Origin: Candidatus Hydrogenedentota bacterium
Lineage (GTDB): Bacteria; Hydrogenedentota; Hydrogenedentia; Hydrogenedentales; JAGMZX01
Reading direction: 5' to 3'
DNA: 58,235 nt
NCBI GenBank assembly: GCA_029556545.1
Contig: JAKQEQ010000052.1
Location: 1 to 58,235 of the forward strand
Part shown: positions 1,591-12,165 of the stretch, one piece after another
Numbering within the stretch: position 1 is the stretch's first letter
How the letters are laid out: each line of letters opens with the position of its first letter
Notes under the pieces: generated by a model
What the model saw: the letters and a program-made list of their open reading frames with translations, nothing else
Told to the model about the DNA's origin: nothing
Database searches by the model: none
Program-made: the position numbers and the translations under genes

Positions 1591-2562
1591 TTGAAAAACG
1601 CCGCCTCGAACCAGGAACGGACCCGGCGTCTGGAGCTTTGGACGCGCCGGATGGATGCGCAGGCGCGGGCGCTGGCGCGGGCGGCCCGTGCGCGCAACAC
1701 GGAACGGGCCTACGCCTCGGACCTGCGGGATTTCGAGTCGTTCTGCCTGATCACGGACGCGTATCGCGAGCCGCCGGAGGCGGAGACGGTGGCGCGCTAC
1801 TTCGCGTGGCTTGCGCAGGAGCAGGGCCGCAAGCCGTCCACGATCCGGCGCCGCCTGGCGGGGCTGTGCCGGGTTTGGGACGACCGGTACGGGCTCAATC
1901 ATGCGGGCCGGGACGAGACGGTGCGGCGGGTGGTGGAGGGGATTCTGCGCACGTACACGGCCGGGGTGGCGCAGGCGCGGGCGCTGACGGTGGAAGAGGT
2001 CCGGCGACTGTCGCTGGCGTGCGACGTGCGGGGTCACGCGGGCCGCCGGGACCGGGCGTTGCTGCTGGTGGGTTTCGCGGGCGGTTTCCGGCGCTCGGAA
2101 CTGGTGACGCTGGACGTGGAGCATGTGCAGTACTTGGAGGACCGGTTGCGGGTTTACCTGCCGCATTCGAAGACGGACCCGCGCGGCCGGGGCCATTGGC
2201 GGAGCCTGCGCCGCGGCCGGCGTCCGGTCACATGTCCGGTGCGGGCGCTGCGGGCGTGGGTGGAAGGCGCGGGGCTGACATCGGGCCCGTTGTTCCGGGG
2301 CGTGGACCGGTGGGGCCATGTGCTGCGTTCGCGGATGCACCCGGACACGGTGTGGCACCTGCTGCGGCGGCTGGGGGCGCGGGCGGGTCTGGAGGCGGGA
2401 ATATCGCCGCACAGTCTTCGTGCGGGTTTCGTGACCTCGGCCACGAGCCGGGGCTTGCAGCCCCTCGAGGTGCAGCGGGTGACAGGCCACCGCGCGGTGC
2501 AGACGCTGGCGCGGTATGACCGCGGGGATGCGGCGGCGGCGCCGGCGGACTTGGGGCTGTGA
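1591..2562 (+). CDS. Tyrosine recombinase (site-specific integrase)
   Basis: The 323-residue protein has an N-terminal core-binding SAM-like domain (about 20-115) and a C-terminal catalytic domain. The full catalytic set is visible: Arg near 167 in G-G-F-R-R-S-E, Lys 194 in H-S-K-T-D, His 274 and Arg 277 in S-P-H-S-L-R, His 300 in V-T-G-H and the nucleophile Tyr 309 in A-R-Y-D. It should therefore be active in strand cleavage and exchange. The start is TTG, supported by GGAG at 1581-1584. A strong promoter lies upstream. The downstream terminase small subunit suggests a phage- or satellite-derived module. It is shorter and different in sequence from the second integrase near 19-20.7 kb, so the island carries two independent recombinases. 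Its attachment site is not recognisable. Confidence 0.9.
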   Translation: MKNAASNQERTRRLELWTRRMDAQARALARAARARNTERAYASDLRDFESFCLITDAYREPPEAETVARYFAWLAQEQGRKPSTIRRRLAGLCRVWDDRYGLNHAGRDETVRRVVEGILRTYTAGVAQARALTVEEVRRLSLACDVRGHAGRRDRALLLVGFAGGFRRSELVTLDVEHVQYLEDRLRVYLPHSKTDPRGRGHWRSLRRGRRPVTCPVRALRAWVEGAGLTSGPLFRGVDRWGHVLRSRMHPDTVWHLLRRLGARAGLEAGISPHSLRAGFVTSATSRGLQPLEVQRVTGHRAVQTLARYDRGDAAAAPADLGL

Positions 2563-2872: not shown

Positions 2873-3442
2873 ATGACGAAGCAAGTGCGGAAACAGAGGA
2901 CGGCGGCGAGACGGGACGTGTCGCGGTCAGGCGTTGGGTCCGGACAAGGAGCCTCGGCGGCGCGGTGTGCGGTCCCGCGTGCAATTCCACGCGCGGCGAC
3001 ACACGCGACGGCGGCCAGGCCGGCGCCCGGCGGTAACGGACCGGGGGCGTCGGATGGACTGAGCGATCGGCAGCGCCTGTTCGTGGCGGCGTATTGCGGG
3101 AACGCGACGGACGCGGCGCGGCGCGTCGGGTTCTCGGCAGGGCACGGCCGACGCCTGATGGCGCTGCCGCGGGTCCGCGCGGCGATTGCCGCGCGTCAAG
3201 CGGCGCAGGCGGCGGAACTCGGCAAGCCGGCGGCGGCGGCGGCACAGGCGGCCATAAACCGCGAGGACTTGCAGCGGGAATGGACCCGCATCATGCGGGA
3301 CGAGGGCTGCAAGATAATGATTCGCTTGAAGGCCAGCGAACTGCTGGCGCGTTCGCTCGGGATGTTCACGGCGCGGCCCGAACCGCAGACGCCGCAGTTC
3401 CAGATTGTGCTGGAAGGCATGGAACCGGACGACATTCGCTGA
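2873..3442 (+). CDS. Phage terminase small subunit-like protein (TerS)
   Basis: The 189-residue protein has a basic, low-complexity N-terminal arm (1-60). Then comes the terminase small-subunit DNA-binding helix-turn-helix: L-S-D-R-Q-R-L-F-V-A-A-Y, N-A-T-D-A-A-R-R-V-G-F-S, and the helix ending V-R-A-A-I-A-A-R. The C-terminal part has the N-R-E-D-L-Q-R-E-W-T segment and a K-A-S-E-L-L-A-R-S-L-G helix common in this family. TerS recognises the packaging site and recruits the large subunit. No terminase large subunit, portal or capsid gene is present, so this is either a prophage remnant or a satellite-type gene acting on a helper phage. AAGGA nine bases before the ATG supports the start. Confidence 0.75.
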   Translation: MTKQVRKQRTAARRDVSRSGVGSGQGASAARCAVPRAIPRAATHATAARPAPGGNGPGASDGLSDRQRLFVAAYCGNATDAARRVGFSAGHGRRLMALPRVRAAIAARQAAQAAELGKPAAAAAQAAINREDLQREWTRIMRDEGCKIMIRLKASELLARSLGMFTARPEPQTPQFQIVLEGMEPDDIR

Positions 3443-3710: not shown

Positions 3711-6700
3711 TCACATGCTCGTGATGGCGTAGACCATGTCGCTGAGGGCGCGGCGGAAGCCCTCATTCTCGACGAACTGCTTGTAGACCTGCGTGTCGTC
3801 CTTGAGCAGCCCCTGCATCACCCGGCCCAGCGCCTGGTCGTGGGCCATACGGGCCGTGTGCGGCGTGTTCGCGCGCGCGTTGCGGTACGCGGTGTCGGCG
3901 GCCACCTTGGGCGCGATGTCGTCCCGGATGCGCCGGGCCACGCGGTCGGCGTCGTCGAAGAGCGTGCCAAACTGCTCGTTGAAGGTCTGCAGGATATTGC
4001 TCAGGAGATCGATCTCCGGTTCCGGCTTTGCGCCTCCGCCTTCCGCGGGCACGGGGCCGATCTCCGAGTCCTCGTCGGCCATCGCGAGCGGAATCGCCTG
4101 TTTCTTCTCGACGCGGTAGCTGTCCATGTCGATGGCTTCGAGGATGCCCACGATGGGTCCCTCGTCCGGCGGCTTGGGCAGCTTCGGGATGAGCAGGTTG
4201 AGGAATATCGAGAGTTTCTCCCACTCGACGTTGTTGTACGGCATTACCGAGGCGAGGAAGTCGTAGGTCCGAACGAAGGTCTTCGCCTTCCCTTTGAAAT
4301 CCACCTGTTGGTCCTCGTCCAGCCGCTCGCAGTAGACGGCGACACACCCATCGAGGATGGGGTCCAGCGTATCCCGCTCCGCACCGGTCAGGAATAGCTC
4401 CACCACCTGCCGCACCTGCTCCGGCGCGTACACTTGCGCGGCGTCGAGCGATCCCTTCAGATCGTGCAGCTTGTTCGGGTCGGTCTCGTCGCTCAGCAGC
4501 GTCGTACGGTAGTAGTCCTGGAAGGCGTAGCTGATCGCCTCCGCGTTGTTATGGAAGTCAAGCACGAACACGTCGTGCTTCTTTGGGTGCGCCCGGTTCA
4601 GCCGCGACAGCGTCTGCACCGCCTTGATGCCCGCCAGCGGCTTGTCCACGTACATCGTGTGCAGCAGCGGCTCGTCGTAGCCCGTCTGGAACTTGTCCGC
4701 GCAGACGAGGAAGCGGTACGGGTCCTTCTGGAACGCATCGGCGATGTCGCCGCTGGGGAAGCCGTTCAGCGAGGACTCCGAGACCCTCGCGCCGCCATAG
4801 TCGTGCTCGCCGGAGAAGGCCACGATGGCCTTGTAGGGGCTCTTGCGCTCGACGAGGTAGTCCCGGATGGCGTGGAAGTACTGGATGGCATGCTCGATGC
4901 CGCTGCACACCACCATCGCGCGCGCCTCGCCGCCGATCTTGCCGCAGGCGATCACCTGGTCGTGGAAGTGGTCCACCATGATCTCGGCCTTCAGCCGGAT
5001 CGCGTGATCGTGGTGCTCCACGTAGCGGAGCAGCTTCTTCCGGGCCTTCTTCGTGTCGAACTCGGGGTCGTCCTCGATCTTCTTCACCAGCTTGTAGTAG
5101 CTCTCGACCGGCGTGTAGTGCCGCAGCACGTCGAGGATGAAGCCCTCCTGCACCGCCTGCTTCATCGTGTAGCTGTGGAAGGGCCGGTGCTTCACCTTCC
5201 CCTCCGCGTCCGGCGGCAGCGCCTCGCCGAACAGCTCCAGCGTCTTATTCTTCGGCGTGGCCGTGAACGCGAAGTAGCTCGCGTTCTTGAGCATCTTCCG
5301 CGCCTTCATCCGCCGCTCCAACTCCTCGTTCACCACGTCCTCGGGGTCGGGCGCGCCCTCGCCGTCGCCCAGCGCCCGGCTCATGGCCGACGTGGTCTTG
5401 CCGCCCTGGCTGGAGTGCGCCTCGTCGATCACGATCGCGAAGGTCCGCCCGGCCTCCCTGGCGACCTCGTCCAGGATGAACGGGAACTTCTGCACCGTCG
5501 AAACGATGATCTTCCTGCCCTGCTCGATGAACTTCCGCAGGTCGCCCGAGTGCACCGCGTGGCCCACCGTCGCGCGCACCTGCATGAACTGCTTGATCGT
5601 CCTCTGGATTTGATCATCGAGGATGCGCCGGTCGGTCACCACGATTACCGAGGTGAAGACCTCCTTGCCGCGGCGCTTCACGCCGATGAGCTGGTGCGCC
5701 AGCCACGCGATCGAGTTCGATTTGCCGCTGCCCGCCGAGTGCTGCACGAGGTAGCGCCTGCCCGCGCCGTGGTCCCGCACGTGCGCCAGCGCCCCGCGCA
5801 CCACGTCGAGCTGGTGGTAGCGCGGGAACACCTGCACGCGCCGCTTCCTGCCCGTCTTCCGGTCCTTCGTCTCGACGATCTGGGCGTAGTTTTCGAGGAT
5901 ATTCGTCAGCCCCGCCGGGGTCAGGACCTCCTTCCAGAGGTAGCCCGTCTTCAGGCCGTCCGGGTTCGGCGGGTTGCCCGCGCCGTCGTTCCAGCCCTTG
6001 TTGAACGGCAGGAACCACGACGCCTTGCCCTTGAGTTCCGTGCACATCCGCACTTCGGCGTCGTCCACCGCGAAGTGGACCGCGCACCGCCCGAACGCGA
6101 AGAGGGTCTCGCGCGGGTCGCGGTCGCGCCGATACTGGGCCACCGCGTCCTCGACGGTCTGCTTCGTCAGGCTGTTCTTCAGTTCAAAGGTGGCGAAGGG
6201 CAGGCCGTTGATGAACAGGCACAGATCGAGCGCGCGCCGGGTCTCGTCCATGCTGTAGGCCAGTTGCCGCGTGATCGAGAAGCGGTTTTTCGCGTGCAGC
6301 GCCGCGGCCTTCTCGTTGCCCGGCGAGGGCGTGCCGTAGAACAGGTCGAAGTGCAGCGGGCCGTGGTCCACGCCCGTGCGCAGCACGTCGATCACGCCGC
6401 GCTTGCCAACCTCGCCCGAAAGCCGCGCCAGGAACTTGAGCCGCTTGATGTCCTGCCTGTTCGTGTATGCCCCCAGGTCCAGCTTCCTGAACGCTTCCGG
6501 CTGCGTGGCCTGCAGGAAGGCGAAGAGCTGCACCACGTCCAGCGCGTGGGCACGGTCATAGTCCTGTGCGCACCCCGCGATGTAGCCCGGACCGCCGCCG
6601 AGAACCGCGGGCGGCTCCGCCACGGCCCCCGGCACGACCGCAAGGCCGTCCGCGCCCGTCATGTGGCGCATGATCAGGGTTTCCAGGCCCCTTTCACTGG

Positions 6701-6713
6701 TGTCGGTTGACAT
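3711..6713 (-). CDS. hsdR: Type I restriction enzyme, R (endonuclease/translocase) subunit HsdR
   Basis: The 1000-residue protein has the standard HsdR layout. The N-terminal PD-(D/E)XK nuclease has Asp 163, Glu 177 and Lys 179 in F-E-L-K-N. Two RecA-like superfamily 2 motor domains follow, with Walker A H-S-A-G-S-G-K-S near 326-333, a D-E-A-H box near 431-434 and T-A-T-P motif III, then a helical C-terminal region that docks on the methyltransferase. It cuts unmodified DNA after ATP-driven translocation in complex with HsdM and HsdS. The ATG at 6713 has a GAGGGAAG ribosome-binding site. Its first 21 codons (6645-6707) are repeated at 8605-8667 on the far side of the higBA module, showing that hsdR once began directly after the PD-(D/E)XK gene. 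The coding sequence is intact, so restriction should be functional. Confidence 0.95.
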   Translation of the reverse strand: MSTDTSERGLETLIMRHMTGADGLAVVPGAVAEPPAVLGGGPGYIAGCAQDYDRAHALDVVQLFAFLQATQPEAFRKLDLGAYTNRQDIKRLKFLARLSGEVGKRGVIDVLRTGVDHGPLHFDLFYGTPSPGNEKAAALHAKNRFSITRQLAYSMDETRRALDLCLFINGLPFATFELKNSLTKQTVEDAVAQYRRDRDPRETLFAFGRCAVHFAVDDAEVRMCTELKGKASWFLPFNKGWNDGAGNPPNPDGLKTGYLWKEVLTPAGLTNILENYAQIVETKDRKTGRKRRVQVFPRYHQLDVVRGALAHVRDHGAGRRYLVQHSAGSGKSNSIAWLAHQLIGVKRRGKEVFTSVIVVTDRRILDDQIQRTIKQFMQVRATVGHAVHSGDLRKFIEQGRKIIVSTVQKFPFILDEVAREAGRTFAIVIDEAHSSQGGKTTSAMSRALGDGEGAPDPEDVVNEELERRMKARKMLKNASYFAFTATPKNKTLELFGEALPPDAEGKVKHRPFHSYTMKQAVQEGFILDVLRHYTPVESYYKLVKKIEDDPEFDTKKARKKLLRYVEHHDHAIRLKAEIMVDHFHDQVIACGKIGGEARAMVVCSGIEHAIQYFHAIRDYLVERKSPYKAIVAFSGEHDYGGARVSESSLNGFPSGDIADAFQKDPYRFLVCADKFQTGYDEPLLHTMYVDKPLAGIKAVQTLSRLNRAHPKKHDVFVLDFHNNAEAISYAFQDYYRTTLLSDETDPNKLHDLKGSLDAAQVYAPEQVRQVVELFLTGAERDTLDPILDGCVAVYCERLDEDQQVDFKGKAKTFVRTYDFLASVMPYNNVEWEKLSIFLNLLIPKLPKPPDEGPIVGILEAIDMDSYRVEKKQAIPLAMADEDSEIGPVPAEGGGAKPEPEIDLLSNILQTFNEQFGTLFDDADRVARRIRDDIAPKVAADTAYRNARANTPHTARMAHDQALGRVMQGLLKDDTQVYKQFVENEGFRRALSDMVYAITSM
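6645..6707 (-). repeat. Copy A of the duplicated hsdR 5' segment
   Basis: This 63-bp segment inside the first codons of hsdR matches 8605-8667 with one mismatch (C at 6691, T at 8651), in direct orientation and offset by 1960 bp. It bounds the inserted higBA segment on the hsdR side. Confidence 0.9.
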
Positions 6714-6794
6714 GCTCTTCCCTCAGAGAGACCATCCCGCGTCTATCATATGCCAAAGATCCAACCGCCTGTCTTTTCCCGCTGTCTTGCCTAT

Positions 6795-6861
6795 TCCTTT
6801 GCTGAATCCTTTGCTAAATCCTTTGCTAAGGCCCGCCTGTTCGACCCTCTTTAGCAAAGGA
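6795..6861. repeat. 12-bp direct repeats plus one inverted copy
   Basis: Three head-to-tail copies of TCCTTTGCTRAR lie at 6795-6806, 6807-6818 and 6819-6830. An inverted copy, CTTTAGCAAAGGA, lies at 6849-6861. The cluster sits between the end of higA and the start of hsdR. It could be a set of protein-binding sites (for example for the HigA-type regulator) or the hairpin terminator of higBA. The third copy and the inverted copy can pair over 10 bp. Confidence 0.6.
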
Positions 6862-6954
6862 GTAATTGACTGTCCTTCAATGACTTACAATATATCATCA
6901 ATCGCGCCCCATAGCCCGAACCCCGATGGGCTTAAGAAATGCTCAAACCGCAAA

Positions 6955-8151
6955 TCATTCCTCAAAGAGGACTCGAACCTTCCTGTGTCCAAGCAGGTCA
7001 GTAAACAGCCTGTAGTTTCTCTTCTCAAAGCGGACTCGGCCGGCAAGCACGGCAGGATGGACGCGCAACCGTTCCGCCGTCTTGACTAACGTATCCTGCG
7101 TGATATTCCGCCGCGAGCCGGCGCTTTTCCAGACCGAAGCGGGGACCAGCGCCTCCATGGCAAACGCATCCGCCTGCTGTTCCGGTCCGTCGTCAGACGC
7201 CTCATCCAGGTCGTCGTAGAAGGTGCAGGCTTCCTCGGCATACAAGTGCAGCTTGACGTGCGCGAGTTCGTGCAACAACGTGAACCAGAAGTTGTCCAGG
7301 CGGTCATGGCGCAACGTAAGCGCCACGGCCGGTTCGCCGTTCGGAAGACACAACGCGGCGCCGTCGAGGCGGGTCTTCGGGAGATGCCGCTCCATAATCA
7401 CGTGGATACCACTCTTCCGAAGGAACTCGCGCGCTAGTTTCGGCCCCTCATCGAAATAGCTCAACGAAACAAGACGGTGCAGGAAATCATCGTCGATGCT
7501 CTTGATATCGAAAGCGGGCAATTCCTCGCGCGCGGCCAAAGTCGCCACCCGGATGTGCCAGGCCCGCAACGCATAATCGTCATTCTGCCTGCCGGTCCGC
7601 ACATGCCGCCGGTTGAACGTGGTCGCGAAAGAGGCCCGAAAGGCTGGAGGGGCAAACGCCGACAAAAGATCCTCCAAGTTCGCCCGCGCTTCCTGAACGG
7701 AACCCCGGAACCCGCCGAACCAGCCGCGTTTCAGCATTTCTCCGATGGGAAACTTGTCCGCGCCGAGCGTGGTGATACTGTCGTCGAGTTTCGCGCCCGG
7801 CTCGTGCAGCAGCACCTCCGCGGGAATGCCGAGCCCCGTGACCAGCTTCCGGATCATGGTCAGGCTCAGGTTCCGCTGCCCGGCCAGCACCTCGGATACT
7901 TTGCTCGCGCTGCCCAGGTAGGGAACAAGATCCTTCGGCTTCAGGCCTTGTTGCTCCATACGAAAGCGAATCGCCGTCAGCGGGTCCGGCAGGTCCACCG
8001 GAAACGCATCCGCCTCATATCGCTCCACAAGGAGAGATCGGAGTTCGAGTTCATCCCCTTCGGGCGTGCCCGGCTTGGCATCGAAGATCTCGTCGATACG
8101 CGCCAACGCCGCCGCGAGGTCCGCGTCGTTCTTGATGATCTTGGGGTTCAC
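6955..8151 (-). CDS. higA: HigA-type antitoxin fused to an ImmA/IrrE metallopeptidase domain
   Basis: The 398-residue protein starts with a HigA-like region. The helix-turn-helix (about 70-118) reads L-K-P-K-D-L-V-P-Y-L-G-S, then V-S-E-V-L-A-G-Q-R, then L-G-I-P-A-E-V-L. A long C-terminal ImmA/IrrE zinc-peptidase-like domain carries H-E-L-A-H (HExxH) near residue 290. The HTH should bind the operon operator and neutralise HigB. The ImmA part, known in other fused antitoxins, may allow regulated self-cleavage or stability control. The GTG start overlaps the higB stop (TAGTG), a sign of translational coupling. Toxin-first order is typical for higBA. The module lies inside the type I operon between duplicated hsdR 5' segments. 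Confidence 0.85.
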   Translation of the reverse strand: MNPKIIKNDADLAAALARIDEIFDAKPGTPEGDELELRSLLVERYEADAFPVDLPDPLTAIRFRMEQQGLKPKDLVPYLGSASKVSEVLAGQRNLSLTMIRKLVTGLGIPAEVLLHEPGAKLDDSITTLGADKFPIGEMLKRGWFGGFRGSVQEARANLEDLLSAFAPPAFRASFATTFNRRHVRTGRQNDDYALRAWHIRVATLAAREELPAFDIKSIDDDFLHRLVSLSYFDEGPKLAREFLRKSGIHVIMERHLPKTRLDGAALCLPNGEPAVALTLRHDRLDNFWFTLLHELAHVKLHLYAEEACTFYDDLDEASDDGPEQQADAFAMEALVPASVWKSAGSRRNITQDTLVKTAERLRVHPAVLAGRVRFEKRNYRLFTDLLGHRKVRVLFEE

Positions 8152-8444
8152 TATACCGTCTCCGCGTCGATCTTGTCATACTCGGAATGCGTTCCCACGA
8201 ATCGGATATAGACGATGCCCAACTGATAATTGATCTTGACCACCAGCCGATACGTGTTGCCCGAAATATTGAATACTACCCGGTTATCCGCCAGGATACT
8301 GGCACTGCCGTACCTCGCCTTCACCTCTGCCGGGCTCGTCCATGCCGCATGATGCACTTCGGCGTGCCACGCCTCCAGAGCCGCCTTCGCGCGCGGCTCA
8401 CGCTCCCAGTACGCCTGGAGCGTCTTTTTCGCTATGATCCGCAT
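8151..8444 (-). CDS. higB: HigB-family mRNA interferase toxin
   Basis: The 97-residue protein begins M-R-I-I-A-K-K-T-L-Q-A-Y and contains the HigB_toxin signatures: A-L-E-A-W-H-A-E near 20-27, W-x-S-P-A-E-V-K, then N-R-V-V-F-N-I-S-G-N-x-Y-R-L-V-V-K-I and Y-I-R-F-V-G-T-H-S-E-Y-D-K. HigB toxins are RelE-fold ribonucleases that cut mRNA on the ribosome. I chose the ATG at 8444 because the family starts at this point and the longer frame upstream is not conserved-looking. It is followed with a one-base overlap by its antitoxin. An inverted repeat 40 bases upstream is a likely autoregulatory operator. Confidence 0.88.
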   Translation of the reverse strand: MRIIAKKTLQAYWEREPRAKAALEAWHAEVHHAAWTSPAEVKARYGSASILADNRVVFNISGNTYRLVVKINYQLGIVYIRFVGTHSEYDKIDAETV

Positions 8445-8483
8445 GAATTCTACCACTTCCCACTTCAGAATGAAAGAGAAAAG

Positions 8484-8498
8484 TTCCCGAATTGGGAA
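8484..8498 (-). promoter_or_regulatory. Candidate HigA operator
   Basis: TTCCC (8484-8488) and GGGAA (8494-8498) form an inverted repeat with a 5-base spacer, 40 bases upstream of the higB ATG. This position is typical for antitoxin autorepression. No clear -35/-10 pair could be fixed nearby. Confidence 0.4.
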
Positions 8499-8529
8499 AT
8501 ATCCTCGTAAGTCGTCTAAACGTAAGCGG

Positions 8530-8673
8530 TTAGCCGAGGTGTTGGCCCCGGTTTCCAAGCCCGTTTACGTGCTTTACGAACCCGCTCCCGGCGGATATCC
8601 TTGCGCCGTCCGCGCCCGTCATGTGGCGCATGATCAGGGTTTCCAGGCCCTTTTCACTGGTGTCGGTCGTCAC
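8530..8673 (-). pseudogene. Duplicated 5' end of hsdR, truncated
   Basis: A GTG-initiated frame of 47 codons starts inside the end of the PD-(D/E)XK gene. Its first 23 residues match HsdR residues 1-23 with few changes (T-D-T-S-E-K-G-L-E versus T-D-T-S-E-R-G-L-E). After that the sequence diverges and ends in TAA at 8530. It is the original hsdR start, left behind when the higBA segment entered; the intact hsdR copy now starts at 6713. Confidence 0.8.
8605..8667 (-). repeat. Copy B of the duplicated hsdR 5' segment
   Basis: This is the direct repeat partner of 6645-6707: 62 of 63 bases are identical. It marks the outer edge of the inserted 1.96-kb higBA segment. Confidence 0.9.
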
Positions 8674-9607
8674 TATGGCTATCCTCGGATTGCGTCATAC
8701 CGGCCAAGTGCACCGCAATGTGGTCCGGACCGAAATAGGTCTTTCCGTCCTCTGACAGTCTTGGGTCAACGGGTTCTTCCGGGAGTCTATCGAAACGCGA
8801 GGTGACTACCCATTGCGGCAGGCCCACTGAAAGTTCTTCGCCCGTGACTATATCATGCACAAAGGGGGCAAAAACGTATTCCCCGTCCCGGCGGCCCTCG
8901 CTATCACGGAATAGTTCGCGGTAGGGGAGATAGTACTTCTGAATCAGAGCCTCAGCGTCTATCTCCAAGTCCATCGAATCAGCCTCGGGCTCGGGGTCTA
9001 CAAGCTCCACACGTACAACGGGATCTTGCAGGGTAAGACAGTAGCTCCGGGAAACGGCTGCTGCTCCGTTGACGTTCCGAACCACGCCCGCTTGGGCCTT
9101 CCAGTGTTGTCTAACAGCCGGTGACGCGCCTGATTGTCGTGCCTTTGCTTCGACGACATGCCATGCCCCCGTATTGTCGTGACCGATCAGGTCCGGAAGC
9201 ATCCGGCTCCTGGCTGGCCGTACAATTTGGAGTGTGCCCTGCCGCTCCAGGAAACGGGCATGAGAGAGCCAGGCAATGTTCAGCACGTTCCCTGCAACTA
9301 CTTTTGCCATCCCCATTCCCAGCCAATAGGAGAGGGAGACCTTCTCACTCTGGTCGAGACTCCTGTAGTTTGGAGGATGCACGAAGCGCCTACCGTCGGA
9401 CTCCAGCGTGGCCAAAAGCGCCAGTACCTTGTGGCCGGTGAAGGCCCATCCACTCAATATGTTCCTAAGCGCCACAAGAGCGTTGGGCGCGCCAACTGTG
9501 ATCACCCCCCAGGCAAGTTCCGCAAGAGAGATGTTCAGGCCGAGGGAACGGTTAGCGACACGAGAAGGAGGCGTGAAATTCGATACATCCACATCGACCC
9601 GCGCCAT
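8654..9607 (-). CDS. Type I RM-associated protein with a PD-(D/E)XK nuclease-like motif
   Basis: The 317-residue protein is not one of the standard Hsd subunits. I do not recognise the family as a whole. Near residues 150-165 it contains R-M-L-P-D-L-I-G, then W-H-V-V-E-A-K-A, the spacing and context of the PD-(D/E)XK nuclease core (Asp in the first strand, E-x-K in the second). The start ATG at 9607 overlaps the hsdS stop (TGATG), and its 3' end overlaps the original hsdR GTG by 20 bases, so it belongs to the hsd operon by design. It may be an accessory nuclease, a DNA-end or phage-DNA sensor, or an anti-restriction counter-measure. No signal peptide or clear membrane segment is visible. Confidence 0.6.
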   Translation of the reverse strand: MARVDVDVSNFTPPSRVANRSLGLNISLAELAWGVITVGAPNALVALRNILSGWAFTGHKVLALLATLESDGRRFVHPPNYRSLDQSEKVSLSYWLGMGMAKVVAGNVLNIAWLSHARFLERQGTLQIVRPARSRMLPDLIGHDNTGAWHVVEAKARQSGASPAVRQHWKAQAGVVRNVNGAAAVSRSYCLTLQDPVVRVELVDPEPEADSMDLEIDAEALIQKYYLPYRELFRDSEGRRDGEYVFAPFVHDIVTGEELSVGLPQWVVTSRFDRLPEEPVDPRLSEDGKTYFGPDHIAVHLAGMTQSEDSHSDDRHQ

Positions 9608-10983
9608 CAAACGGCCTCCTCTTCCGGCACGTCCTCGGCGTCGCTCGCACCGATTTCTGTATCCGCCAGTTCGATTTCGACTTCGTCCGGCAGCCCTGCC
9701 GCCGCCGCGCGCACATCCAGCTTGCCCGTCACCACGTCCGCCGTCAGGCGCGTGCGGTATTCGCGGAGGAGTTCGATCTCGCGTTCGAGGCGGGCAATGG
9801 CGTTTGTTAAAGGTTGCGTCTGCTGTGTGGTGCAATGGACAATCGCGTCTTGTTCCTCTGGCGGCGCTACAGCGATTGAGATAGACAGCAACCGATCCTG
9901 AGTAAGCTTGGGTTGCGCCGCTCCTGAAATCCACGGTGCGTAGTTCAATGTCTCAAGAAGATGGGCGAGATAAAAAATACTGCCACGCTTCGGCTTCAGA
10001 ATATGGGCATGGTTGTTCACCCAGAACTTGCCTCTAGCGATGATCGCGAGCGGCAGATTACGAAGAACCAAGTTGGCCCCATCTTCCGCAATGAGCAGCA
10101 ATTCGTCGTCGAAGAGATAGTCATCCACTTTGTCGATCACGCCAGATGCACCATAATAATCGTAGGTCCTGGATGTCATAGCACCACGCTCAACCGCATT
10201 GAGTGGCACGCGTTGCGTATTTAAGCAGTGGAACTCGTTCTTGATCCTCGACACCTCCCAATGCTGCGGAATATCCCCGAGCCAGGGGATGCCGGAGGGT
10301 TTGAGGGGGACGTTGGGGTCGAGGCCCGCCTTCGCCGCGGCTTCGGCGGGTAAACCGCGGGTGACGGCGCGGTGGATGATGGCCTGTTTCTGTTCGTTGA
10401 GCAGGGCGATGATTTTCCGTTTCGCGCGGATGGCCCGGTCCAGCCGCCCGTTCGCCCAGTCCAGAAACCGCACTATCGCCGCCTGCTCCGAGGGGGGAGG
10501 GAGGGGAATGAACGCACGACTGAGGCGCTCGTAGTCGATATTCTGCCCTTCACGAATGCCTGTCACAAACAAAGTCAGGCTTCTGATGAAGTTGGCTGAC
10601 TTGAAATACGAGTTGAAATACCGCGGTTCGAAGTCATCACGTGGTCGAAGCACGGTGTATGCTGGGCTAATGATCCCACGTGCATGTGAGACCTCGATAC
10701 CGCCTTGAAACGACCTGAGGCTGATCACAAAGTCGCCAACCTCAACGAGCTTGAGGTTTTCAAGACCGTTCATGGCCGTCACCGTGCGTAGTCCATAGTC
10801 CTCTTTTCGCACAACACCCTTGCTTTGCGTTGCCGCAAGCAGCGGCTCATTCGGGAATCCCTTTTCAGTCCGTTCCTTGAAGAGGAACTTCATCCGTCGT
10901 GAGTCCCAATGCCCCGGCACCTCGCCGAGCCACGGCAGGCCCGAGTCCTTATACTTCGGATATGGCTTGAGAGCGGCGATCAT
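9607..10983 (-). CDS. hsdS: Type I restriction-modification specificity subunit HsdS
   Basis: The 458-residue protein has two target-recognition halves. Each begins with the typical module: D-S-G-L-P-W-L-G-E-V-P near residue 14 and P-S-G-I-P-W-L-G-D-I-P near residue 232. Each ends in conserved helices after P-L-P-P-P-S-E-Q and A-P-P-E-E-Q. The two halves read a bipartite DNA sequence and the helices scaffold HsdM. The protein ends in an acidic tail. The first ~15 codons are repeated in diverged form at 12007 and 12165, marking earlier insertion or duplication events between yhcG and hsdS. The stop overlaps the next gene by one base. Target specificity cannot be predicted from sequence alone. 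Confidence 0.95.
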   Translation of the reverse strand: MIAALKPYPKYKDSGLPWLGEVPGHWDSRRMKFLFKERTEKGFPNEPLLAATQSKGVVRKEDYGLRTVTAMNGLENLKLVEVGDFVISLRSFQGGIEVSHARGIISPAYTVLRPRDDFEPRYFNSYFKSANFIRSLTLFVTGIREGQNIDYERLSRAFIPLPPPSEQAAIVRFLDWANGRLDRAIRAKRKIIALLNEQKQAIIHRAVTRGLPAEAAAKAGLDPNVPLKPSGIPWLGDIPQHWEVSRIKNEFHCLNTQRVPLNAVERGAMTSRTYDYYGASGVIDKVDDYLFDDELLLIAEDGANLVLRNLPLAIIARGKFWVNNHAHILKPKRGSIFYLAHLLETLNYAPWISGAAQPKLTQDRLLSISIAVAPPEEQDAIVHCTTQQTQPLTNAIARLEREIELLREYRTRLTADVVTGKLDVRAAAAGLPDEVEIELADTEIGASDAEDVPEEEAV

Positions 10984-11073
10984 GAATGTCCTTCCCCTTC
11001 GCGCCCTTCGCGGTTTCGAGTGCTACACTCTTTTTGCTTCGCGCGCCACCTTCCCCATCCCTCACGCGACGAC
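10984..11073 (-). repeat. Leader repeat R2 immediately upstream of hsdS
   Basis: On the minus strand this segment shares a ~38-bp core (TCGCGTGAGGGATGGGGAAG and following bases) and a second CGCGAAGG-rich block with 12008-12075. Between the two blocks it carries a ~23-bp insertion that includes GAGTG-TAG-CACTC. It directly precedes the hsdS start, just as R1 precedes the hsdS-like start at 12007. Confidence 0.6.
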
Positions 11074-11158
11074 GCGAAGGAATGATTGATAAAAGACGAC
11101 CCAACCTCTCCGGGGAACGTTAGCTCGCAGTGCTTATATATTGAATATCCTCCAAGGC

Positions 11159-12007
11159 TCATGCTTTAAGCCCTTTCTCTTCAGAGTCCCCAGAAACAAC
11201 TGCGCCTAGCGCCTGCGCCGTTTCCAATGTCGCGCGTTCGGCATCACGTGTGAAGTTCTCGTCGCGAAGTCTGAGGAAGGCTTCCGGATTCTGCTCGCAG
11301 TGATAATAGTAGTGCCTCATACGAGCCATTTTTTCCTCGTCACGCTGCTGGCGTTTGGACGGTCTTATATGCCCAGTTAGTTTCATGCCGGTATGGGCGG
11401 CTTTGCCCAGTGAATACACAAGGACAACAAGCCCCCAGAAGGGATTTGCCCAACCCAATAAGGCGACTAATGACGGAATCACCACAAGCCACACCATCAA
11501 AGCGGCCTTTAATAGGTGAATGCCTATCCGCATTTGTCGGGCCTTGGCGTAAGCCTGTTCGCGGATTTCGTTCTGCGTTCTGAAGGGGACGCAGCGAAAG
11601 ACTTCTCGCAACCTATTACCTGATAACGCTCCCTCTGGGAATTCGTCTTTACCCACAATCCCCCATTTGATGATAATCTCGCCATCGTGGATGTAACCGT
11701 TGAGATGGTTGCTCGGGCGGACTTGCTCTAAGCAAATAGGCGAATCATCTAAACCAAATGCGCTTACCATCAGTGGTATGGGAAATCGCCGTATCCAGTG
11801 CGCCAGTTCCCGCTCCATGCTTTCCGCAACCTGTCCGGCGTCTATATGAGACAATATGCTCAGATTCAAGCAGGCAAAATAGTCGCCAATACGTGGTGGG
11901 AAATACTCGACAAAATATCCCTCACGGGATTCTCTAATGGTAACATAAAAAATCTGTTCCAAGCCCGGCTCCTTGTGCTGCGGATATGGCTTGCGACCGG
12001 CGGTCAT
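11159..12007 (-). CDS. Membrane protein of unknown function with an HsdS-derived N-terminus
   Basis: The 282-residue frame begins M-T-A-G-R-K-P-Y-P-Q-H-K-E-P-G, clearly related to the HsdS start M-I-A-A-L-K-P-Y-P-K-Y-K-D-S-G, and then continues into unrelated sequence. Residues ~185-225 hold two hydrophobic segments (L-L-K-A-A-L-M-V-W-L-V-V-I-P and F-W-G-L-V-V-L-V-Y). A C-terminal cytosolic part has H-Y-Y-Y-H-C-E-Q-N-P-E-A-F-L-R. I do not recognise the family. The start codon may be borrowed from the duplicated hsdS 5' end, so the ancestral start could lie downstream. The gene stands between yhcG and hsdS, so it is transcribed with the defence operon. A membrane-linked accessory role in defence is an inference. 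Confidence 0.55.
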   Translation of the reverse strand: MTAGRKPYPQHKEPGLEQIFYVTIRESREGYFVEYFPPRIGDYFACLNLSILSHIDAGQVAESMERELAHWIRRFPIPLMVSAFGLDDSPICLEQVRPSNHLNGYIHDGEIIIKWGIVGKDEFPEGALSGNRLREVFRCVPFRTQNEIREQAYAKARQMRIGIHLLKAALMVWLVVIPSLVALLGWANPFWGLVVLVYSLGKAAHTGMKLTGHIRPSKRQQRDEEKMARMRHYYYHCEQNPEAFLRLRDENFTRDAERATLETAQALGAVVSGDSEEKGLKA

Positions 12008-12075
12008 GGCTTTCCGCTCCCGTCGCGGCCTTCGCGGCTTCGCGCGCCACTTTCCCCTTCCCTCACGCGAAGACG
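12008..12075 (-). repeat. Leader repeat R1 upstream of the HsdS-like start
   Basis: This is the counterpart of 10984-11073: the minus strand shows the same TCGCGTGAGGG core followed by GTGGCGCGCGAAGC and a CGCGAAGG block, ending directly at the ATG at 12007. About 34 of 38 core bases agree between the copies. Confidence 0.6.
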
Positions 12076-12123
12076 AGAAGACGCAAAGAAAGACAAGACA
12101 GCCTGACCGGGCCTTAGCGGGCT

Positions 12124-12165
12124 GGCGTCCCTGTATTCCAGATATGGCTTGAGTTGGGCGATCAC
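12124..12165 (-). pseudogene. Remnant of the original hsdS 5' end
   Basis: GTG at 12165 overlaps the yhcG stop (GTGA) and opens a frame V-I-A-Q-L-K-P-Y-L-E-Y-R-D-A. This corresponds to HsdS residues 1-14 (M-I-A-A-L-K-P-Y-P-K-Y-K-D-S). The similarity then stops. The overlap shows hsdS once followed yhcG directly. Confidence 0.65.

Follow-up and report, generated by a model that had tools for sequence, protein, structure and literature searches.

Remnants of gene starts in type I restriction-modification operons as possible traces of defence-module exchange

The presence of modules inside type I restriction-modification operons is already in print. In enteropathogenic Escherichia coli, DarTG2 lies between hsdS and hsdR, at a site that the authors regard as a potential recombination hotspot (PMC12255303), and two genes embedded in a type I locus are described for Vibrio cholerae, with reference to Payne and colleagues on embedded systems (PMC11411939). 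In the cited passages, a trace left by the entry or exit of a module is not described. For the immunity-gene arrays of V. cholerae type VI secretion, homology-facilitated illegitimate recombination has been proposed (PMC5361080); in E. coli conjugation, this route was observed at 3x10^-10 per recipient (PMC3240628). Among the matches listed in our literature search (titles and abstract openings, with subscription papers and preprints outside its scope), none reported remnants of gene starts, or duplicates of them, at joints of this kind. Here we analyze a stretch of 58,235 nucleotides, referred to as the window, from contig JAKQEQ010000052.1 of a Candidatus Hydrogenedentota genome (GCA_029556545.1). 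It carries a type I operon, with hsdM, hsdS and hsdR domains all above the Pfam cut-offs, in which the start of hsdR is present twice and a HigB/HigA-ImmA pair lies between the two copies. Start scars of this kind seem to record the swapping of defence modules among type I operons.

An earlier note on this DNA had described a 63-bp repeat of the hsdR start, 1960 bp upstream and with one mismatch, and this was confirmed. Bases +7 to +69 of hsdR are present in an inner and an outer copy (Table 1), with 62 of the 63 positions identical and the single mismatch splitting the repeat into exact stretches of 16 and 46 bp; when the window was compared with itself by BLAST, a 68-bp pair was obtained (E 4e-22). 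The identity holds from codon 3 on. The outer copy begins with GTG (8673-8671) and ACG, and the inner copy with ATG TCA; given these unlike codons 1 and 2, the repeat is not a simple copy of one start plus its surroundings. The inner copy is the complete, differently spelled start of hsdR, with its own ATG, a ribosome-binding-like motif (GAGGGA) and a 241-bp leader. Immediately past +69, the outer copy diverges from hsdR, i.e., homology is lost at one joint. The note had also stated that the outer copy overlaps the preceding gene as an hsdR start would. An overlap is indeed present, but it is of 20 nt and involves a 317-amino acid open reading frame (ORF), here called cargo 1, and not hsdS, whereas in 18 of the 19 relatives with adjoining hsdS and hsdR these two genes overlap by 4 bp. 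Since the conserved residues of the outer copy show no decay, a recent event, as proposed in the note, is plausible. A search of the window's own genome with the segment 6600-8720 returned one match, the window itself. The further suggestion of the note, that such an insertion ties loss of restriction to toxicity, is speculative; the higB-higA pair could be lost alone through recombination between the repeats.

For comparison, the best 80 of 428 loci from the same hsdR family (69-81% identity; L numbers below) were taken from a genome collection. Their gene set is an uncurated longest-ORF call, and related loci are not independent events. Among the 75 loci with an hsdR start (window included; upstream length uneven and almost nil in a few), the best same-strand match upstream of hsdR reached a score of 60 in the window and 63 in L064; no other locus exceeded 21. 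Such a copy was counted for 2 of the 75 hsdR starts preceded by at least 1 kb, and the copies are not independently conserved sequences of the relatives. In L064, from Rubrivivax pictus W35 (recorded as a strain, not as a metagenome-assembled genome), the repeat measures 90 bp, of which 81 are identical and 9 differ. The outer copy overlaps the hsdS stop in ATGA, as in cargo-free relatives. The copies enclose a nucleotidyltransferase (Pfam Polbeta) and a partner, matched by PADLOC PDC-M05A and B; the NCBIfam MntA match was below its cut-off, and the partner had no Pfam or NCBIfam match. From the PDC-M05 pair we read the two genes as a putative MNT-HEPN (type VII) toxin-antitoxin system. This layout suggests that another pair of toxin-antitoxin type was gained at this position, likewise accompanied by a duplication of the hsdR start. 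The conserved profile residues E7 and H17 are altered in the L064 outer copy, as expected of a non-functional remnant. The layout recurs with hsdR in L064 and, at the start of hsdS, in both the window and L075 (see below). The hsdR repeat ends at +69 in the window and at about +82 in L064.

Remnants of gene starts were found well beyond these two cases. Short ORFs at in-operon stop codons matched a gene N-terminus from another locus in 12 of 54 cases, compared with 2 of 223 outside operons (BLAST with a threshold of E 0.01 and the same loci as subjects; Fisher p 6.8e-8), and shuffled sequences gave 0.05 matches per set. One of the two outside matches (L057) turned out on inspection to lie within an operon. 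With the same loci as subjects, a module seen once is unrecognisable as the source of a scar, and the hsdR stub of the window is outside the 12/54 count because the 317-amino acid ORF is missing from the gene set. The stubs come from SLFN/AlbA_2 genes before darT (L029 and L025), AlbA_2-type genes (L022 and L073), GmrSD after hsdM (L058), hsdS (L032, L075 and the window) and hsdR (L064); in L088, a darT stub of 67 residues stands ahead of a 301-amino acid ORF and a PIN-domain gene. Stubs of L023, L024 and L092 are GmrSD or AlbA_2-type by eye, fell short of E 0.01 and are outside the count. Stubs of genes other than hsdR end at scattered positions, after 13 to 67 residues. An earlier form of the test gave 7 matches at 24 hsdS/hsdM stops and 7 at 235 other stops, five of the latter seven being inside operons. 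Its wrong-frame control gave 6 of 143, with five of the six directed to a single L053 ORF, a wrong-frame call over hsdR that was removed as a subject in the later test. A tblastn scan was noisy, owing to overlong yhcG and hsdS start calls, and served only for re-inspection of known scars. A special role of the stubs in keeping translation coupled was considered and rejected: a 4-bp overlap of stop and next start was found in 5/13 scars, 17/42 other in-operon short ORFs and 27/222 outside. A stub right behind a needed stop may last longest, because deletions reaching beyond the stub would damage the upstream gene. As a separate observation, the L088 segment 6811-9867 holds an intact darG with darT cut to its 67-residue stub, i.e., an antitoxin-type gene without its toxin.

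Some of the stubs are chimeric. In L088, a 7-codon hsdS-like start (MIAALKP) is continued in frame by an hsdM tail, the present hsdS of this locus starting with GTG (V/MIDGLKP); further on, a 15-codon GmrSD-like start is fused in frame to another hsdM tail, and a second yhcG comes next. A 31-codon GmrSD start in L057 likewise continues into an hsdM tail. In these three stubs, the remnant is joined to an extra copy of the hsdM 3' end, which is expected if the incoming fragment came from another type I operon and started inside hsdM. The order in L075 is yhcG, hsdS-start stub, second yhcG and intact hsdS, a design as in the window, although the stub match is short (11 residues by BLAST, about 27 bp). 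In the hsdM-hsdS interval of the window, hsdS-like starts flank a 282-amino acid ORF, and the hsdS-like stub behind yhcG ends on the start of that ORF. A 44-bp repeat (11036-11079 and 12037-12080; 91%), resembling interspersed intergenic repeats, lies beside these starts, and in L055 (1-650) tandem 173-bp repeats ahead of hsdS each contain an hsdS start.

On balance, we lean towards reading the outer copy as the start scar of a module exchange in which homologous type I operons recombined, homologously at one end and illegitimately at the other. In the ancestor, hsdS, the 317-amino acid cargo gene and hsdR would have followed one another with overlapping ends, and the incoming DNA would derive from a related operon with higB-higA before hsdR. 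At the right end, homologous recombination within hsdR would leave the gene whole and give it the donor start (ATG TCA) and leader; at the left end, an illegitimate joint inside the recipient hsdR near base 69 would leave the 5' stub behind cargo 1. If the gene cut in this way is hsdR or hsdS itself, an apparent start duplication would result; if it is another cargo gene, an orphan start would remain. The donor-type arrangement exists: in L038 and L089, higB-higA stands directly before hsdR (gaps of 15 and 89 bp; 53-59% identity) and no hsdR-start copy lies upstream. The earlier note had proposed a start-duplicating insertion. The arrangement it described stands, with cargo placed behind a remnant start and ahead of an intact hsdR that has its own ATG and leader. 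A start-specific mechanism is not supported as such, since most of the scars stem from other genes, in favor of a general one-sided recombination as modules turn over.

Several observations weigh against this exchange. Copies of the hsdR start are rare, and 2/75 is not clearly commoner than the 6/582 found for other gene starts (raw counts, with no statistical test), so that hsdR starts are no clear duplication hotspot; one of those six, in L088 at 3243, sits in the operon. No donor with near-identical DNA was found, and the differing start ATG TCA is the only hint of a homologous joint with a recombination tract in hsdR. Searches for further cases with an N-terminal hsdR profile (A1) returned no other duplicated hsdR start in the class, the L064 order, the L030 family, viral contigs, plasmids or E. 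coli. The profile matched in 5 of 68 genomes of the class, 10 of 399 of the L064 order (where at most 16 candidates were scored per genome, so short stubs may escape), 5 of 158 of the L030 family and 16 of 16 genomes reached via the loci. Matches also occurred in viral contigs (3 loci, one match each), plasmids (one place) and E. coli (56 and 2 genomes, one place each). Side-by-side pairs were confined to the genomes of the window and of L064, and G070 had two matches on separate contigs. As for the stubs, one of the 12 in-operon matches (L089) is doubtful (register 1 vs 34), the stubs of L024, L025 and L029 may descend from one event, and those of L022, L058 and L032 are not followed by new cargo and resemble plain deletions. 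Since plain deletion of old cargo also leaves stubs, their excess alone is no proof of exchange. Finally, the two hsdS-like starts of the window are only 67-78% like the real hsdS start, over short stretches, so that those events are older than the hsdR event.

Among the alternatives, a single crossover fares best, although we consider it unlikely. A circle that carried higB-higA together with some 63 bp of the hsdR start would integrate to give direct repeats, and its excision would restore the empty site. Such an event yields the order of stub, cargo and intact gene, with the repeat ending at both limits of homology, and the 62/63 identity in the window, as well as L064, fits it. It leaves unexplained the orphan stubs of other genes and the stubs joined to hsdM tails, and the own genome, the only one searched for it, yielded no free copy of the stretch. 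Some mobile elements insert at a gene's 5' end, as SXT does with prfC, restoring the start of their target and supplying a new leader; they carry an integrase and a defined core. Integration of this type at the hsdR 5' end, with the repeats as attachment sites and the integrase acting in trans, is in our view improbable. The two hsdR repeats do end close to each other, and a phage-integrase family gene (Pfam; 1591-2562, plus strand) lies 1.1 kb past the hsdR stop. However, higB and higA are the only genes between the window copies, where neither a recombinase gene nor a defined core was seen, the other stubs have scattered ends, and no second site with the hsdR-start sequence turned up in the genomes searched from the class, the L064 order and the L030 family. 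Least credible, and very improbable, are an assembly artefact, for which the 195 contigs of the genome could speak but which with exact runs of at most 46 bp would require short k-mers and is at odds with the differing start codons and flanks and with the same layout in L064, another genome, and a functional leader kept as a regulatory or coupling element, which the overlap of the stub with the preceding ORF would allow but which 73 of 75 hsdR starts lack, which has decayed at conserved residues in L064, and which is not favored by the frequency of 4-bp coupling in stubs (5/13 against 17/42).

A broader version of the module exchange favored here is speculative, and we hold it to be doubtful: type I operons might be recombinase-free docking arrays, with hsdM, hsdS and hsdR as homology anchors, 4-bp start/stop overlaps as near-seamless joints, and start stubs (some of them in-frame hsdM-tail fusions that end on the start codon of the next module) preserving coupled translation. 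If so, defence and toxin-antitoxin modules could be stacked and swapped while restriction is retained, and the stubs would be a readable record of earlier modules. Start stubs would in any case be a physical trace, in ordinary genome sequences, that names the earlier module and marks the joint, and with them the turnover of embedded defence systems becomes testable by comparative genomics.

The gene maps of the relatives revealed varying modules in both the hsdM-hsdS and the hsdS-hsdR intervals: DarTG, a SLFN/AlbA_2 + ATPase protein, GmrSD, YhcG, a PDC-S05 protein (which we take to be RhuM-type) and higB-higA. At 65 hsdS ends, hsdR followed directly in 19 and cargo or a gap in 46; in 18 of the 19 directly adjoining loci, hsdS and hsdR overlapped by 4 bp (one adjoining locus, L094, is elsewhere scored -1 owing to an extrapolated start). 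Within the window's own taxonomic order, two genomes carry modules in the same place, G037 with DarTG and G010 with an unrelated 535-amino acid ORF. Of five annotated plasmid operons, three have hsdS directly before hsdR and one has a single DUF4268 gene between them. In the fifth, L139 from a Meiothermus taiwanensis plasmid, DarTG-like genes and an ATPase/DUF4276 pair are stacked in the hsdS-hsdR interval (5387-8995).

The cargo between the window copies consists of HigB and a second protein, which shows Peptidase_M78 (E 3.5e-8) along with an HTH_3 match just under the Pfam threshold, and the PADLOC models PD-Lambda-2_A and _B match the two proteins almost end to end. Judging from these matches, the cargo is a two-gene PD-lambda-2-like pair. 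No component C was found adjoining A and B, the leader having no same-strand ORF of at least 60 amino acids and the 317-amino acid neighbour no PADLOC match; the rest of the genome was not searched for it. In the cited passages on PD-lambda-2, C is required for defence against lambda-vir, and B, the HigA-peptidase protein, is toxic when overexpressed alone and is rescued by A (PMC9519451), so that naming HigB as the toxin is an assumption. Cargo 1 had no match in Pfam (scanned as a longer ORF of 426 amino acids), PADLOC or NCBIfam. A palindrome, TTCCCAATTCGGGAA, lies ahead of higB (window 8484-8498), and a similar one, TTCCCTAAATGGGAA, was found by eye at the start of the L064 nucleotidyltransferase gene (10135-10149); the two are perhaps operators of their cargo modules.

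Table 1. Features of the type I operon in the window, in the direction of transcription
Feature	Coordinates	Strand	Remarks
hsdM, 783 aa	13262..15613	-	Pfam N6_Mtase E 3e-50, HsdM_N; NCBIfam hsdM model match below cut-off
yhcG (DUF1016 nuclease), 367 aa	12162..13265	-	Pfam YhcG_C E 1e-57; PADLOC PDC-S02
53-codon mini-ORF from putative hsdS-like start scar	12004..12165	-	GTG overlaps yhcG stop; stop overlaps ATG of 282-aa ORF by 4 bp
Cargo ORF, 282 aa	11159..12007	-	First codons (MTAGRKPYPQHKEPG) hsdS-start-like; no match in PADLOC or NCBIfam
hsdS, 458 aa	9607..10983	-	Pfam Methylase_S E 1e-14
Cargo 1, 317 aa, unannotated	8654..9607	-	ATG overlaps hsdS stop (TTGATGG); 3' end overlaps GTG of the putative scar by 20 nt
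47-codon mini-ORF opened by outer hsdR start	8530..8673	-	GTG 8673-8671; residues 1-23 hsdR-like, remainder unrelated
Outer repeat copy (putative hsdR start scar)	8605..8667	-	62/63 identical to inner copy
HigB-like protein, 97 aa (PD-Lambda-2_A)	8151..8444	-	Pfam HigB_toxin E 8e-33; PADLOC E 6e-44, 1-97 of 97
HigA-like helix-turn-helix + ImmA/IrrE peptidase, 398 aa (PD-Lambda-2_B)	6955..8151	-	Pfam Peptidase_M78; PADLOC E 1e-138, profile 1-397 of 402
241-bp leader, higA to hsdR	6714..6954	-	Ends GAGGGAAGAGC-ATG; without same-strand ORF of at least 60 aa
Inner repeat copy (hsdR bases +7 to +69)	6645..6707	-	62/63 identical to 8605-8667
hsdR, 1000 aa, intact, ATG at 6713	3711..6713	-	Pfam HSDR_N, SWI2_SNF2, ResIII, T1R_D3-like; NCBIfam hsdR match below cut-off

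Other features were noted in passing. The hsdR leader contains, at 6787-6864, three TTGCTxAATCCTTTGCT repeats spaced by 12 bp and an inverted partner, possibly an operator or a terminator-like element. Past the hsdR stop, an ORF at 2873-3442 (plus strand) has a sub-threshold match to a terminase small subunit. Three candidates for further start duplications were rejected. In L086, the repeat near hsdR is the 3' end common to two adjoining ORFs (8654-8797 and 9798-9942), which encodes a similar membrane-anchor-like C-terminus, and is not hsdR. In L058, a 76-bp repeat (3964-4039 and 5265-5340; 75 identical) is the 3' end of an upstream gene, whose C-terminal residues resemble those of formate-tetrahydrofolate ligase, and flanks ~1.2 kb upstream of hsdM. 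L129 (contig C445 of G043) is a decayed locus with a truncated hsdR start. In L082, a copy of the hsdR C-terminus lies downstream, and is only 41% identical.

Compared with described systems, the pair between the window copies resembles PD-lambda-2 in its HigB-like and HTH-peptidase proteins, which match the PADLOC models nearly over their full length, and differs from the system in the cited passages (PMC9519451) in that component C is not adjacent. The DarTG2 locus shares the interval and a toxin-antitoxin cargo; the cited passages mention no remnant or duplicated start there, and the cargo in the window is HigB/HigA-ImmA (PMC12255303). With homology-facilitated illegitimate recombination, the exchange proposed here would share one homologous and one illegitimate end and the gain of DNA without a recombinase, but the cited passages concern laboratory transfer experiments (PMC3240628), whereas here the route is inferred from natural sequence. 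The type VI secretion displacement arrays of V. cholerae are similar in that modules are added beside a conserved anchor and leftovers of earlier modules remain. In those arrays, as far as the cited passages go, what remains behind a new module is entire immunity genes (PMC5361080), whereas in the type I operons the leftovers are 5' stubs ahead of the module, sometimes of the anchor gene itself.

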